Origin: Chromatiales bacterium
GTDB lineage: Bacteria > Pseudomonadota > Gammaproteobacteria > Thiohalospirales > Thiohalospiraceae
DNA length: 38,323 bases
NCBI GenBank assembly: GCA_026982395.1
Contig: JALSHD010000192.1
Span: forward strand, 1-38,323
Direction: 5' to 3'
Made by a program: the position numbers and the translations under genes. Numbering within the stretch: position 1 is the stretch's first letter; each line of letters opens with the position of its first letter. This document shows, piece by piece, positions 26,347 to 32,464 of this stretch. The notes beneath the pieces are model-generated. The model was not told where the DNA came from. It ran no database searches and worked only from the letters and a program-made list of their open reading frames with translations.

Positions 26347-27966
26347 ATGAAAAAACTATTGTTATTGGTCATTCTGGTTGCGGCTGTCACCGGTTGTGAT
26401 GTAGATGTGCCCAGCAAAGGAGCGCAGGCCGGGTTCCAGGTTTCCGGTTTTGCCGCGCCGCTTTCTGAACAGGAGTATTCCCGCCTTAGCGATGAACAGC
26501 AATACCGTGTCGCCAACAAGCTGTTGGGTACCATGTATCGTGGTGTTGCCGTAGCTGACTTTTTTGATATCTCCCAAGGGATGGACAAGCCGGTGTTAAA
26601 AGAGGGGAAGGGGTTTCTCTCTTCGGTAGAGGCTGCTCTGTCCACCCCGCTGGACAGTGCTACCCTGGAGCACTACGACACTCTGATCGGAGGTGACGAG
26701 GAAAAAGGAATCGAGGCGCGATTCAGTTTTCGTCAGGTTCCCAAGGAGCGTCCTCTGGCGCGGATTTATCAATATCCTTTGAGCAAGGATATGTTCGACC
26801 ACTGGATCGCCTGGCACCTTGCTAACACCATTCTGTTTTCTCCGGCGGAAGAGATTGACAGTGCCAACATCAACGATGTTCAAAAGGTGTATAACAAACT
26901 GGTAGAGGATCTGCGCAATGGAAAAACGGTTCGCCAGATTATTGCGCGTCATCAGCGTACCCAGGAAAACTGGCGCCGGTTTCGTTCTCCGGAAGATAAC
27001 ACCCGGGAGATGATTGAAATTTATCTGGGGCTGTTTGATCGCGATGAGGACGTGCCTCGCGCTTCTATTGCCTGCGGAGATCTGTATCTTTCCGATGAGA
27101 GTGAAGGCTATGAGCTTCTTTCAACCGGTTCTCCAAATACCGAGCCCCAACTGGTGCTTGGTGCCTATGTAACGACTTGCGATGATTTTTACGATTTGAT
27201 TGCCGGACATCCGCTGGTGATCGGGCGGGTAATTACCGTGCTGGTGGAGTATTTCTTTGCTGAACGCAGTAATTCGGATCGGCTGAAAATCGTGGAATCC
27301 ATTTTGGCCAGCAATCCGGTTACGTTTGAAGAGATATTCAAGGGGATCATTTTTTCACGGGAATATTTGTTAAATACCGAGCGCCCGAAATCATTCGAGG
27401 AGAGCTTTTTGGGGGCGGCCCACCGGCTTGACTGGAGTGCGCCTGATAATTTGTTTCAGGGTATTGTTTCCAACCGTGGTGGAGCGTCACGTGCTTATAT
27501 GGGAGAGATGAGCTGGCCCACCATGTCGCTGAAACTGGGGCGGCTGTTTGGTATTCCCATGGACTCTCTGAGTTTTGCCAATTACCACAAGGGCTATCGC
27601 GAGGTACTGCTTATCAGCAGGAATCGCTGGCGTAAAGAGCTGGGTCTTGTTTCAGCAGATGAGCCCGGTGATGATGCCACTGCTGAAGAACAGATGTTAT
27701 ACGAAAAAAATCAGGAAAGATTTGCTGCAGTGGAAAACATGACCATCAATGAGTTTATCGATTATCTGTTCCTGAGTGCCGCAGTACGGAGATCGAGTGC
27801 GATGGAAAAGACCACCTTGACCAATATTGCCCGTGAGGCCAATTTCGTAAGAAACAGAGAGGGAAAGCAGGTGATCAGGGATGGATATCATGATGATTTT
27901 GCCGGCATGGTCTTTGACTATATTTCCAGATTACCTGAGTCGTATTACTTCAAGGCGATTAACTGA
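26347..27966 (+). CDS. Large unknown lipoprotein paired with the DUF1501 protein
   Basis: I do not recognise the family with certainty. The 539-aa protein has a signal peptide with lipobox AVTGC (Cys17) and a mainly helical mature part. That part includes LSDEQQYRVANKLLGTMYRG, FDHWIAWHLANTILF and a segment with FSREYLLNTERPKSFEESF. ATG 26347 follows AGGTAAGGGG. It lies 13 bp upstream of a DUF1501 gene. DUF1501 genes usually pair with DUF1800 genes, and this protein holds that position, so it may be a divergent functional equivalent. Only two further cysteines (IACGD, TTCDD) are seen and no haem-binding CxxCH. Confidence 0.6.
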   Translation: MKKLLLLVILVAAVTGCDVDVPSKGAQAGFQVSGFAAPLSEQEYSRLSDEQQYRVANKLLGTMYRGVAVADFFDISQGMDKPVLKEGKGFLSSVEAALSTPLDSATLEHYDTLIGGDEEKGIEARFSFRQVPKERPLARIYQYPLSKDMFDHWIAWHLANTILFSPAEEIDSANINDVQKVYNKLVEDLRNGKTVRQIIARHQRTQENWRRFRSPEDNTREMIEIYLGLFDRDEDVPRASIACGDLYLSDESEGYELLSTGSPNTEPQLVLGAYVTTCDDFYDLIAGHPLVIGRVITVLVEYFFAERSNSDRLKIVESILASNPVTFEEIFKGIIFSREYLLNTERPKSFEESFLGAAHRLDWSAPDNLFQGIVSNRGGASRAYMGEMSWPTMSLKLGRLFGIPMDSLSFANYHKGYREVLLISRNRWRKELGLVSADEPGDDATAEEQMLYEKNQERFAAVENMTINEFIDYLFLSAAVRRSSAMEKTTLTNIAREANFVRNREGKQVIRDGYHDDFAGMVFDYISRLPESYYFKAIN

Positions 27967-27979
27967 GGGAGTATCCGCC

Positions 27980-29437
27980 ATGAAAAGAAGAACTTTTATT
28001 AAATCGGTTGGTGCACTTGGTTTTACCGCCAGTCTGCCAGCTATGTTTTCCAACGAGTCACTGATCAAGCAGGTTTCTGCGGCACCAGCGCTAAACGAAG
28101 TCAATTTTGTGGCGCCACAAGTTATGCCCCAGGTCATAAACGTTTTTCTGTATGGCGGGCCCTCCGAGTTGGCGGGGAATCTGACCAATATTGATGATAT
28201 CAATGGCAACTCCCAGAATCCGTACCCCAGAAACCTGTTAAGAGCTGCAACGGAAGAGAATGGAAGAATAACGCGGAACGGTTTGTGGAGTGACGCAGGT
28301 GGAGATGCTATGGAGGATATGCTGGCCTCCGGGGATATGACAATTTACCGGACAGTGAATCGTCGTCGCAATAATACTCGCGCCCATCGTCCCAGTATTT
28401 TCTCCTGTCTGACCGGAAATCTCGATATTGACAACAGCCCCGGAATGGGTACGACACTGGCAGCAGTTCTGTATAAAAACCGGGCCTCTTTAAACAAGCC
28501 GATAGATCAGTTTGTTTTGCCATTTGTTTCTTTTGAGGGTGCATCAACAGCATTCATCAGCGATCCGAATAATCCGTTGCCCCTAGGTATGCGGTCAATC
28601 AGCCTTGACCAGAGGTTTGATAACCCGTATTCCCGCGGGAACAACCGGTTTGATGAAGCACTTGAAAAGCTGGCGGCTCAAATGAGTGTCGGGGCCGATA
28701 CCCGTTATGAGAAAGCTTTTGCCGGATTCAAGACTCGCCGCAGTCTGGAGCAGCTTATTGATGGTTTTTCCACAACGCTTAATGACTCGGGTTCACTTCC
28801 TGTACTTCCGGAAGGGGATGTGGATGCTGGAGATGATGGGCGGTTACAGTATCCGAATACGCGCTATACAGACCGGATAAAGGCGGCTGTCACCCTGGCA
28901 ATTGCCAACCCTGACAGCCTTTTTATCACGGTGGGGGGCGGTCTGGGTGGTTGGGATGATCATAACTCCGCAATCGAAGAGTATACCGGTCGGATGCAGG
29001 CCTTGATGACAACTTTGCGTGCGGCTACCAAGCATATTAAGTATGGAACGCGCCCCGGAGGCGGCAGCACCGGAAATATCATCATTAATGTATTCGGAGA
29101 TTTTGGCCGCAATGTCAACTTGAACAACTCCATGGGTTGGGACCATGGCAACAACCAGAATCTTTATACTTTTGGCGGTGCAGATCTTCGGCCCGCTAAT
29201 GCCTTGGGGAAAATCGTTGGAAAAACGGAACGTTTTGGCAGTTCAAAGCAGAATCGCCAGTTTACCAAGCCCACGGATGACAGCTATGAGTTCGAGCCTA
29301 CAGCGATTGCTGCAACTGTGTACTCCTATTTCGGGGTGCAGAACCCCGAGGTGCTGACCAGGGATTCGCGCTACTCTCTTCAGGGGGAAACGGCAATAGA
29401 TGAAACAGTTGCAGGTGAGCCGCCGATGTTTGCCTAG
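27980..29437 (+). CDS. DUF1501 family protein with twin-arginine signal
   Basis: The 485-aa protein starts at ATG 27980 after GAGGGAG; longer open frames overlap the preceding gene. The N-terminus MKRRTFIKS with a hydrophobic stretch and an A-A-P-A cleavage region is a Tat signal. DUF1501 features include the GGGLGGWDDHN segment and the C-terminal NVFGDFGRNVNLNNSMGWDH, related to the alkaline-phosphatase-like fold. Members are periplasmic or surface proteins of unknown activity. TatABC, at 4201-5642, would export it. It forms a two-gene operon with the preceding lipoprotein and converges on apbE. Confidence 0.85.
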   Translation: MKRRTFIKSVGALGFTASLPAMFSNESLIKQVSAAPALNEVNFVAPQVMPQVINVFLYGGPSELAGNLTNIDDINGNSQNPYPRNLLRAATEENGRITRNGLWSDAGGDAMEDMLASGDMTIYRTVNRRRNNTRAHRPSIFSCLTGNLDIDNSPGMGTTLAAVLYKNRASLNKPIDQFVLPFVSFEGASTAFISDPNNPLPLGMRSISLDQRFDNPYSRGNNRFDEALEKLAAQMSVGADTRYEKAFAGFKTRRSLEQLIDGFSTTLNDSGSLPVLPEGDVDAGDDGRLQYPNTRYTDRIKAAVTLAIANPDSLFITVGGGLGGWDDHNSAIEEYTGRMQALMTTLRAATKHIKYGTRPGGGSTGNIIINVFGDFGRNVNLNNSMGWDHGNNQNLYTFGGADLRPANALGKIVGKTERFGSSKQNRQFTKPTDDSYEFEPTAIAATVYSYFGVQNPEVLTRDSRYSLQGETAIDETVAGEPPMFA

Positions 29438-29465: not shown

Positions 29466-30350
29466 TCAGATACACCAGAAGTCGACCTTCTGTGCTTCCA
29501 GAAAGCTTTGTGCCTTTGCTCCTTGTAACATGGCCATGGTTGAAAGCATGCCGGCTTCCAGGCAGGTATTGGCAATAACGGTAACGGCCCGGGGGGCTTC
29601 CGGAACAGGCCAGCCAGTGGTTGGGTCCAGTATGTGGCTGTAGCGGATACCATCTTTCAGCAGGTAGCGCCGGGCATCACCGCTGGTTGCCAGTCCCCCT
29701 TTTGACAGATTGACCGCGCCAACCTGGTTGGCGCCGGTAGCCTCCGGATCATCAACTCCCACACCCCAGGGCTCCCCGTTTTGCTGAGGGCCCAGCGCAA
29801 ACAGATCACCTCCATAATTTATCAGTGCACCTGTTTTTGATTTTGCAAAAATCAGCCGGGCAGTCTGATCGACGGCATACTCCTTGCCAATTCCCCCCAG
29901 ATCGATCTCCATTCCCGGGTGCAGGGTGATGACGGGTCTTTGCCATTTGACCTTGTCCCAGCCAACGCGGGGTAGTATTGACGCAACGGCAGCCGGTTCG
30001 GGAATGTTGTCACTGCCATCAAACTTCCACACCTCGCGCAGCACTCCGGAAGTGATATCAAACTTGTGTTCGCTGAGCTGGTAGCACTGCTGGGCAAAAT
30101 CCAGCAGGTTGGCGGTCTCTTCATCAACAGGGACTGGGGTACCGTTACTGTGATTGATCTGGTAAATACAGTTGTCTGTTCGGTAACGACTGAATTTCTG
30201 TTCGATACGTTTGGCTTCGGTATAACTCAGCAGCAAAATTTCTTGCGCCAGTGACCGGCTGTCGGTAGCGAGCAGTATTTCGCATGGGCTGGCCATGGCT
30301 TGAAAGCAACCACGCCAGTAACCGGCTTCTCTGGTCAGGCTGAGGGACAA
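29466..30350 (-). CDS. apbE: FAD:protein FMN transferase
   Basis: ApbE attaches FMN covalently to a threonine or serine of target proteins in a Mg-dependent reaction using FAD. The 294-aa protein has KFDITSGVLREVWKF, the EIDLGGIGKEYAVDQ FAD-binding segment, INYGGDLFALG, LATSGDARRY and HILDPTTGWP, all typical. The start is a TTG at 30350 with GGAGAG upstream; no ATG or GTG lies between the preceding in-frame stop and this codon. No signal peptide or lipobox is seen, which is unusual because most ApbE proteins act outside the cytoplasm. It is last in the operon with the DUF3570 and DUF4266 genes. Confidence 0.9.
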   Translation of the reverse strand: MSLSLTREAGYWRGCFQAMASPCEILLATDSRSLAQEILLLSYTEAKRIEQKFSRYRTDNCIYQINHSNGTPVPVDEETANLLDFAQQCYQLSEHKFDITSGVLREVWKFDGSDNIPEPAAVASILPRVGWDKVKWQRPVITLHPGMEIDLGGIGKEYAVDQTARLIFAKSKTGALINYGGDLFALGPQQNGEPWGVGVDDPEATGANQVGAVNLSKGGLATSGDARRYLLKDGIRYSHILDPTTGWPVPEAPRAVTVIANTCLEAGMLSTMAMLQGAKAQSFLEAQKVDFWCI

Positions 30351-30484: not shown

Positions 30485-31702
30485 TTAATCAAATGCCTTC
30501 TTGAAGCTTGCCTGGAATATTACCGCCTTGTTGGTGTCGTATTCCGCTTCGGCAAATGTTTGGTACAGATACTCCAGGCGGAATCGCAGGGTGCCTCCCC
30601 ACGCGGGCAAGCCGTATTTTGCTCCCAGGGTCACGCTGCTCATTTCATCCAGGCGGTAATCGGCGCTGGCGTATTCAGGCACTGATTGATCATACTCCAG
30701 ACTGTGGCGGAAGAAAGCCGCAGCCGTCTGAGTGTAAATACGCAGGTGGGGTTCCAGGAAGCTGCCACCGCTAAATTCCCTGCGGTGCCGGTAAACTACG
30801 GTGTGGGAATTGATATCCCAGTCGTCCCAATAGAAGCGATAAGAGAGATGGATGGTGTCCTTGTTTTCCAGCCGGTGTACCATGGCACCATACAGGGTTT
30901 GCCGTTGCCTGTTGTCAGGCCGGCTTTCAAAATAGCGCTCCACTTCGATGCCATTGGCATCGGTGCTGCTAATCAGTTTGTAGGGATCAGTGAGGTATCC
31001 CTTCTGGGAGCCGATTGTGTAGTTGAGCTGCGCGACGGTGCGGCGATTGATGATTCGTGACACTCCCAGTATGCCCTCATACCCGCGCTTGTTCCCGGCT
31101 TCAAAAAACTTTGGTTTCCCCTCGTTTGCACTGATTTCACCCAGCGGTTCGGGTGTTCCTCCCGAGCTCTGCATAATGGTGTCATAGGAGCCGGCGATAC
31201 CTGCGGTGAAGGTCAGGCTTCGGTCATCCGTTTCCTTGTCAAAAGTGAGACTTCCACCATAGGCCTCATAGTCACGCTCGACGGAGATACTGGCACCGTA
31301 ATTTACCCTGAAAGTTCTGTTGTAGCTGTGTGTCCAGCCAACATTGACTCCGAGGCGGGTGTCATCAAAATCAACCAGATCGGGAGTCCCGGAGGTGGTT
31401 TTGAAACCAGCACCACCGGAAGAGGGGGTGGTGACCGATACCGGGCTAACCGATTTGACGGCTCCGGTGGGCGTGGCTCCGGTTATCGTATCGTAAACGG
31501 CCTCCAGCATGAGTAGATCATTGTCACCGAGGGTAACATCGGCGCGAGTGATGATTTTGTTGACGGTGACCCGGTCGGCTTCACTGTAAAACAGGTAAGA
31601 GGTATCTGTAGTCCACGAACTTTCTGTGGCGACTGCCTGTTGTGCGCCCTGGGACAGAACCGTACAGGTGGCAACGGCCAGCTTGTTGCGAATTGATTTC
31701 AT
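30485..31702 (-). CDS. DUF3570 outer-membrane protein, possible flavinylation target
   Basis: The 405-aa protein has a signal peptide (about 1-26) and then many alternating strands with aromatic residues, as in an outer-membrane beta-barrel. It matches DUF3570, a family found with DUF4266 and ApbE. Near the N-terminus, residues 71-77 read DTITGAT, which resembles the D-x-x-(S/T)-G-A-(S/T) sequences flavinylated by ApbE in NqrC and RnfG, making Thr77 a candidate FMN site. This link is inference. It lies 31 bp after the DUF4266 gene. The C-terminal residue is Asp, not the Phe common in barrels. Confidence 0.8.
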   Translation of the reverse strand: MKSIRNKLAVATCTVLSQGAQQAVATESSWTTDTSYLFYSEADRVTVNKIITRADVTLGDNDLLMLEAVYDTITGATPTGAVKSVSPVSVTTPSSGGAGFKTTSGTPDLVDFDDTRLGVNVGWTHSYNRTFRVNYGASISVERDYEAYGGSLTFDKETDDRSLTFTAGIAGSYDTIMQSSGGTPEPLGEISANEGKPKFFEAGNKRGYEGILGVSRIINRRTVAQLNYTIGSQKGYLTDPYKLISSTDANGIEVERYFESRPDNRQRQTLYGAMVHRLENKDTIHLSYRFYWDDWDINSHTVVYRHRREFSGGSFLEPHLRIYTQTAAAFFRHSLEYDQSVPEYASADYRLDEMSSVTLGAKYGLPAWGGTLRFRLEYLYQTFAEAEYDTNKAVIFQASFKKAFD

Positions 31703-31733: not shown

Positions 31734-31964
31734 TCAGTTACATCCGCATCCGCCACCACCGACGCCTTTCCCGCCGGTAGAGGCTTCTTTGCTGAAATAG
31801 ATATGCTCATCGGCAAAACTCTCGATGGCGTCAGCCTCCAGCTGCATCGATTCCTCAGCCAGTATTCCTTTTTGCCAGGGTTTTACGGGTTCCGGTTTAA
31901 ATGCAGCGCAGGCCTGCAGCGTAACCAGCAACGTGCAAACCAGAGTGAGTCGGAGCTTGTTCAT
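31734..31964 (-). CDS. DUF4266 small lipoprotein with Gly/Cys-rich tail
   Basis: The 76-aa protein has a signal peptide ending LQAC (lipidated Cys19) and then the KPEPVKPWQKGILAEESMQL region typical of DUF4266. It ends in a glycine-rich tail GGKGVGGGGCGCN with two cysteines. The tail could be a metal or redox site or a modified peptide. It overlaps the thioredoxin-like gene by 4 bp and precedes DUF3570, so it is tightly coupled. The function is unknown. Confidence 0.8.
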   Translation of the reverse strand: MNKLRLTLVCTLLVTLQACAAFKPEPVKPWQKGILAEESMQLEADAIESFADEHIYFSKEASTGGKGVGGGGCGCN

Positions 31965-32464
31965 TGTTTGGTTACCAGTTGTTCAATGGCTGTTTCCGCT
32001 TTCTTCTTGAGGCTCTTGTTGAATCCTTCATATGTCTCCACAATGTAGCCCCGCTTGTCAATGAGATAGGAGGTTGGCATTACCTTCAGGCCATAGCCTT
32101 CCGCAACTTTCCCCTTGCGGTCGAAAGCAACGGTGAAAGCAGCCGGATATTTGCGGAGAAACGCGGTTGCATCGTCGGGAGATTCGTCAAGAGTTATGGC
32201 GATGACTTCGAATCCCTTGTCTTTATACCGCGCCTGGATCATGTTCATCCAGGGGAATGACTTGCGGCATGGCAAACACCATGATGCCCAGAAATCGAGA
32301 TAAACCACCTTGCCCCGGAATTGGGCCAGATCCACGACACCTTCCGTCCCCGGAAGCCGGAAACGGCGAGCTTTCTCCTCGGCCGTCACATTTGAGGCAT
32401 ACAAAAGCAGGGACAACAAACTGGAAATGATAATGGCGCTAACTGCCTGTTTGAGCATGCTCAC
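31961..32464 (-). CDS. TlpA-like periplasmic thioredoxin
   Basis: The 167-aa protein has an N-terminal membrane or signal segment (about 7-28) and a TlpA/ResA-type thioredoxin fold. The active site FWASWCLPCRKS carries Cys63 and Cys66. GFEVIAITLDES and a cis-proline segment MPTSYLID follow. It would reduce disulfides in the periplasm. It is first in the operon with DUF4266, DUF3570 and apbE, and the two cysteines of the DUF4266 tail are plausible substrates, by inference. Confidence 0.9.
   Translation of the reverse strand: MSMLKQAVSAIIISSLLSLLLYASNVTAEEKARRFRLPGTEGVVDLAQFRGKVVYLDFWASWCLPCRKSFPWMNMIQARYKDKGFEVIAITLDESPDDATAFLRKYPAAFTVAFDRKGKVAEGYGLKVMPTSYLIDKRGYIVETYEGFNKSLKKKAETAIEQLVTKQ

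Follow-up and report, generated by a model that had tools for sequence, protein, structure and literature searches.

A far-diverged DUF1800-like lipoprotein and DUF1501 gene pair joined to a DUF3570 flavinylation cluster in Gammaproteobacteria

Introduction

Proteins of the DUF1501 and DUF1800 families are common but, to our knowledge, have no known function. Ordinary DUF1800-DUF1501 gene pairs have one known link, namely to bacterial chitin synthases (PMC5122149). A different kind of gene cluster has been described around DUF3570: Meheust et al. 2021 showed that ApbE flavinylates a DUF3570 homologue from C. luteolum, and reported that genes for DUF3570, ApbE, a thioredoxin-like protein and DUF4266 travel together, their function being given as uncertain and the purpose of DUF3570-based electron transfer being described in the same terms (PMC8238504). 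In a search of the open-access literature we found no paper joining DUF1501 or DUF1800 with DUF3570. Here we describe a locus in which the two kinds of genes stand together. It lies in a stretch of 38,323 nucleotides from a Chromatiales bacterium (contig JALSHD010000192.1 of assembly GCA_026982395.1), hereafter the window.

Gene content and organization of the locus

The locus comprises six genes:

26347-27966, + strand: lipoprotein of 539 aa, assigned as a remote DUF1800 relative, with lipid Cys17 and conserved Cys243/Cys278 (ORF, hhalign, family alignment, AF2 model)
27980-29437, + strand: DUF1501 protein of 485 aa with a twin-arginine signal and a predicted alkaline-phosphatase-superfamily fold (Pfam 31.1 bits, conserved motif, VIA)
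29466-30350, - strand: apbE, FAD:protein FMN transferase without evident signal peptide (Pfam ApbE 239.7 bits, N-terminal hydrophobicity)
30485-31702, - strand: DUF3570 protein, a known type of ApbE substrate, with the flavin-acceptor motif TGAT (Pfam 301.5 bits, motif alignment)
31734-31964, - strand: DUF4266 small lipoprotein with C-terminal GGGGCGCN (Pfam 76.1 bits, cut-off 27; the CGCN tail is common to the aligned DUF4266 rows)
31961-32464, - strand: TlpA/ResA-like thioredoxin with WASWCLPC and a hydrophobic N-terminus (Pfam Redoxin 84.1 bits, motif)

The lipoprotein and DUF1501 genes are separated by 13 bp and converge on apbE, with 28 bp between the stops; upstream of apbE on its strand follow the DUF3570, DUF4266 and TlpA/ResA-like genes. 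These coordinates, strands and gaps are as given in an earlier note made from the sequence alone. The elements of an ApbE-DUF3570 system are all present: a DUF3570 protein with an acceptor motif, ApbE, the CXC tail of DUF4266 and the WASWCLPC of the thioredoxin-like protein. The TGAT of DUF3570 fits the acceptor pattern [S/T]GA[S/T], and the second motif given in PMC8238504 is not clearly kept. No DsbD was found among the window ORFs scanned.

Predicted export of the encoded proteins

The earlier note envisaged mixed export routes, and the sequences bear this out, signal peptides being judged here by hydrophobicity and by eye. The lipoprotein has a lipobox (VTG-C17), the TlpA-like and DUF4266 proteins have hydrophobic N-termini, and the DUF1501 protein, read from the ATG at 27980, begins with the Tat motif MKRRTFIKS, in which R3, R4 and F6 are invariant in 20/20 aligned sequences; the Pfam TAT_signal score of this protein (14.2) falls under the cut-off of 22.7. 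The window's ApbE, however, has no visible export signal. Among pair-linked ApbEs whose N-terminus is complete, an evident signal peptide is missing from 18 of 20, that of the window among them; it is likewise missing from all 13 unlinked ones, and is present in those of loci L094 and L096. It follows that FMN may be attached before export, and cytosolic ApbEs are known (PMC12052999). The N-terminus of the pair-linked DUF3570 proteins is unusual, approximately LAxATCxLLS with a conserved Cys in 20 of 27 aligned rows.

The lipoprotein is a remote relative of DUF1800

Pfam and NCBIfam scans assigned the 539-aa lipoprotein to no family, and none of 12 members of its own family matched Pfam DUF1800 (PF08811, cut-off 26.1 bits) at E values up to 10. 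Profile-profile comparison gave a different picture. A 12-member lipoprotein profile scored 94.3% against a 15-member DUF1800 profile, and a 25-member lipoprotein profile scored 94.6% by hhalign (E 7e-8, 317 columns; 94.1% with the sides swapped), while nine control comparisons, including each family reversed, DUF1501, ApbE and DUF3570, remained at or below 0.3%. These profiles make the lipoprotein a remote relative of DUF1800 that Pfam does not see; since no member reaches the Pfam family, we call it DUF1800-like rather than DUF1800. The earlier note had left the protein unassigned, which holds for Pfam and NCBIfam families and no longer for the remote relationship, and had contrasted it with the usual DUF1800 partner. 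By the hhalign result the protein is no unrelated partner but a far-diverged DUF1800 relative, and the DUF1800-DUF1501 type of pairing is kept in diverged form rather than replaced. Two genomes (G003 and G006) also carry an ordinary DUF1800 gene elsewhere, adjoining a DUF1501, so that in them the lipoprotein does not simply make up for an absent DUF1800.

Besides the lipid Cys, Cys243 and Cys278 are conserved in 24 of 25 lipoproteins. In the remaining one, L024, they are replaced by A and G, and this is the one clearly unlinked copy. It belongs to a second, diverged lipoprotein-DUF1501 pair (L024:2492-5490) on a 13.5-kb contig that carries no flavinylation gene. The contig has, in addition, a cation-efflux-like gene, and it encodes a small exported protein containing CGCC; the genome has 6% reported contamination. 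Further unlinked copies, sought as a test of the Cys rule, were not found, the search again returning only the 16 of 369 class genomes.

The predicted structure of the lipoprotein (AF2; pLDDT 79.7, pTM 0.83), a check proposed in the earlier note, is mostly helical with short strands and has no trustworthy match among solved structures: no solved relative was found by sequence, and the best Foldseek E value was 0.43. For residues 145-535, phycobilisome linker/core proteins fill VIA ranks 1-7, at Z 5.2-6.5 and under the tool's trustworthy level for helical proteins; they give a weak hint at the ancestry of DUF1800-like folds.

Other assignments were considered. FTR matched 3 of 12 members over a short stretch under the cut-off (best E 0.01) and was rejected. 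DUF1592/PSD4 (PF07631) gave no Pfam match in the lipoprotein; the family is present in 3 of 114 genomes, too few for a profile. A further possibility, that ordinary pairs have a haem partner for which flavin stands in here, is not supported: CXXCH occurs in 0/22 DUF1800 ORFs and 0/25 lipoproteins, and nearby in 5/22 versus 4/25, the split ORFs of L142 and L144 being counted separately.

The DUF1501 partner and its predicted fold

The second gene of the pair is recognized by Pfam as DUF1501 (PF07394; 31.1 bits, above the cut-off of 27; one fragment in the genome search scored 25.9) and scores 99.1% against ordinary DUF1501 by hhalign. A search for solved relatives of DUF1800 and DUF1501 by sequence returned chance matches only. 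The DUF1501 model (pLDDT 75.9, pTM 0.82) has ten Foldseek matches to solved chains at E <=0.001 (best 1.1e-4), and among the 50 VIA matches listed PafA, ENPP enzymes, sulfatases and EptA stand at Z 15.1-17.0, with PafA at Z 17.0, rmsd 4.6 over 278 residues. The protein is thus predicted to have an alkaline-phosphatase-superfamily fold. Candidate site residues conserved in the family are S62, E63, H136, D326-H328, F375-R377 and D388-H389.

Distribution and gene neighbourhood

Within the window's family, the lipoprotein, DUF1501 and DUF3570 occur together in nine of 12 genomes and are jointly absent from three, two of which are 73% and 85% complete. In the class, the lipoprotein profile matches 16 of 369 genomes; DUF3570 is present in 95, including all 16 with the lipoprotein (Fisher 1.4e-10, kinship ignored). 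Counted by genus, DUF3570 is found in 11/11 lipoprotein genera versus 77/271 (5.7e-7, kinship again ignored). In the wider phylum, two of 398 genomes have the lipoprotein, both of the window's class, and the named database records with it are gammaproteobacterial metagenome-assembled genomes. The six-gene module has so far been seen in Gammaproteobacteria.

In 14 of the 16 lipoprotein genomes, DUF3570 lies within ~7 kb of the lipoprotein gene on the same contig. One of the two exceptions, G103, is on a contig that stops inside DUF1501, and there apbE adjoins the pair; in the other, G201, the pair occupies a 6.7-kb contig without DUF3570, and the sole DUF3570, encoded elsewhere, resembles the unlinked type. 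The earlier note proposed a neighbourhood analysis, with rare adjacency of the two gene sets as the outcome that would count against it, and the 14 linked genomes show clearly that this is not the case. The genes stay together while their order and strand vary in about nine arrangements. The locus in the window is convergent and L088 divergent. In four arrangements the pair runs in the same direction as flavinylation genes: it follows tlpA-apbE in L022/L023, precedes tlpA-DUF4266-DUF3570 in L091, follows apbE in L094/L096 and follows DUF3570 in L015. Neither tlpA nor apbE adjoins L092 and L097. Within the genus of the window, the flanking genes too are conserved, with asnB on one side and typA on the other where contigs reach; beyond the six, no gene family is common to more than 3 of the 19 loci. 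Collectively, the six genes form a real unit, and the suggestion of the earlier note that they make up one envelope system gains support from this persistence through many rearrangements.

Some loci have features of their own. In L015 (643-6810), a 943-aa PD40/hydrazine-synthase-alpha-like protein carrying CXXCH twice is followed by a second, very diverged DUF3570, whose flavin motif is degenerate (SSAS) and which lies ahead of the pair. In L088 (2302-6946), genes for a molybdopterin oxidoreductase and for its 4Fe-4S subunit end just ahead of the pair.

The association is specific in both directions. Near ordinary DUF1800 loci, apbE, DUF3570 or DUF4266 was found in 0/20 and a thioredoxin-like match in 3/20. 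Conversely, the lipoprotein or DUF1501 was found in 0/20 other DUF3570 loci, which were hand-picked rather than random, taken from the stronger matches not already known to be linked, with some strong ones skipped. DUF3570-DUF4266 clusters without apbE in the fetched stretch also occur (L153, L154, L155, L156, L162, L163 and L166). In a DUF3570 tree, which omits ORFs shorter than 300 aa (L016 and L018 among them) and L162/L163 as second stretches of included loci, 21 linked and 22 unlinked rows separate with two label changes, a number as low being reached in 0/500 shuffles; L015_5482 and L147_8490 form long branches that may have been joined falsely. Several genomes carry both kinds of DUF3570, pair-linked and unlinked.

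Possible role of the module

The conservation of the gene set, its specific association, the remote tie to DUF1800, the fold of DUF1501 and the Cys pair are computed results; a physical complex, the relay and its direction, and an enzymatic role of the pair are inferred. In the proposed reading, to which we give even chances, the six genes would make up a single redox module of the cell envelope, with a thiol/flavin relay that works for the lipoprotein-DUF1501 complex. DUF3570 would receive FMN at its TGAT site from cytoplasmic ApbE and would then go to the envelope. There, electrons may move between the thiol pool and the DUF3570 flavin by way of the TlpA-like thioredoxin and of DUF4266, the lipoprotein with the CXC tail. 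Together with the Tat-exported DUF1501 protein, the DUF1800-like lipoprotein would form a membrane-anchored complex as the working end of the chain, with Cys243/Cys278 as its candidate contact point with the thiol relay, a link suggested by the conservation of these residues together with the single exception, L024. The relay does not need the pair, which is absent from all 20 other DUF3570 loci examined, a point against the redox module. Further points against it are these: the G201 pair, on its short contig, has only a DUF3570 of the unlinked type in its genome; L092 and L097 have no adjoining tlpA and apbE; and the known proteins with an alkaline-phosphatase fold act mostly as hydrolases or transferases rather than in redox reactions. 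A broader version, in which DUF1800/DUF1501-type pairs are redox or redox-gated envelope enzymes whose electron source here is flavinylated DUF3570 and the thiol relay acting via the lipoprotein Cys pair, is put forward tentatively and is rather doubtful.

The predicted fold of DUF1501 also suits a hydrolase or transferase whose target is an envelope polymer or a phospho or sulfo group, for which the flavin and thiol genes would only maintain disulphides or share regulation, with no electron reaching the substrate through the pair. TlpA-like proteins commonly service disulphides, which is in keeping with such a role. So are the reports of ordinary pairs beside bacterial chitin synthases (PMC5122149). 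Disulphide service alone, however, would need no flavinylated protein, and yet DUF3570 is the most constant neighbour of the pair; we consider this explanation rather unlikely. The pair could instead be an assembly or quality-control factor that places or processes the diverged DUF3570 subtype, and not the working end at all. Its occurrence with one DUF3570 subset, and with none of the 20 other DUF3570 loci examined, is what would be expected of a dedicated helper, but related DUF3570 proteins do without the pair, and ordinary DUF1800-DUF1501 pairs stand without DUF3570 in 20/20 control loci, and so such pairs do have their own role. A helper role is accordingly unlikely in our estimation. Inherited gene order without functional meaning, which the asnB and typA flanks within the window's genus would favour, is highly improbable: the multiple arrangements with unrelated flanks in 11 genera and the absence of the association in matched controls refute it as far as this sample goes.

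If the redox module is correct, two large unsolved protein families would be tied to electron transfer at the cell surface; the pair is the obvious candidate for the end that the DUF3570 electron chain still lacks. The module gives DUF1501/DUF1800 and DUF3570 electron transfer a testable context, in which the flavin is visible by UV fluorescence and the cysteines can be mutated.

Comparison with known systems

The window has all four genes, with their motifs, of the ApbE/DUF3570/thioredoxin-like/DUF4266 cluster of PMC8238504, and lacks an adjacent DsbD, as do 316 clusters of that study. It differs in having two more genes, for the DUF1800-like lipoprotein and for DUF1501; the main text of PMC8238504 names neither DUF1800 nor DUF1501. 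With the alkaline phosphatase superfamily (PafA, ENPP, sulfatases and EptA) the DUF1501 protein has its predicted fold in common, at an identity of about 10-14%. The ordinary DUF1800-DUF1501 pair (PF08811 with PF07394) has the same order, DUF1800-like first and Tat DUF1501 second, the same DUF1501 export type, and a first gene remotely related to the lipoprotein over the aligned columns. In contrast to it, the first gene of the window pair is too diverged for Pfam (0/12) and has an extra conserved Cys pair, and the window pair sits with flavinylation genes, as 0/20 ordinary DUF1800 loci do. What is new at this locus is that a flavinylation cluster of a known kind includes a diverged DUF1800/DUF1501 pair.
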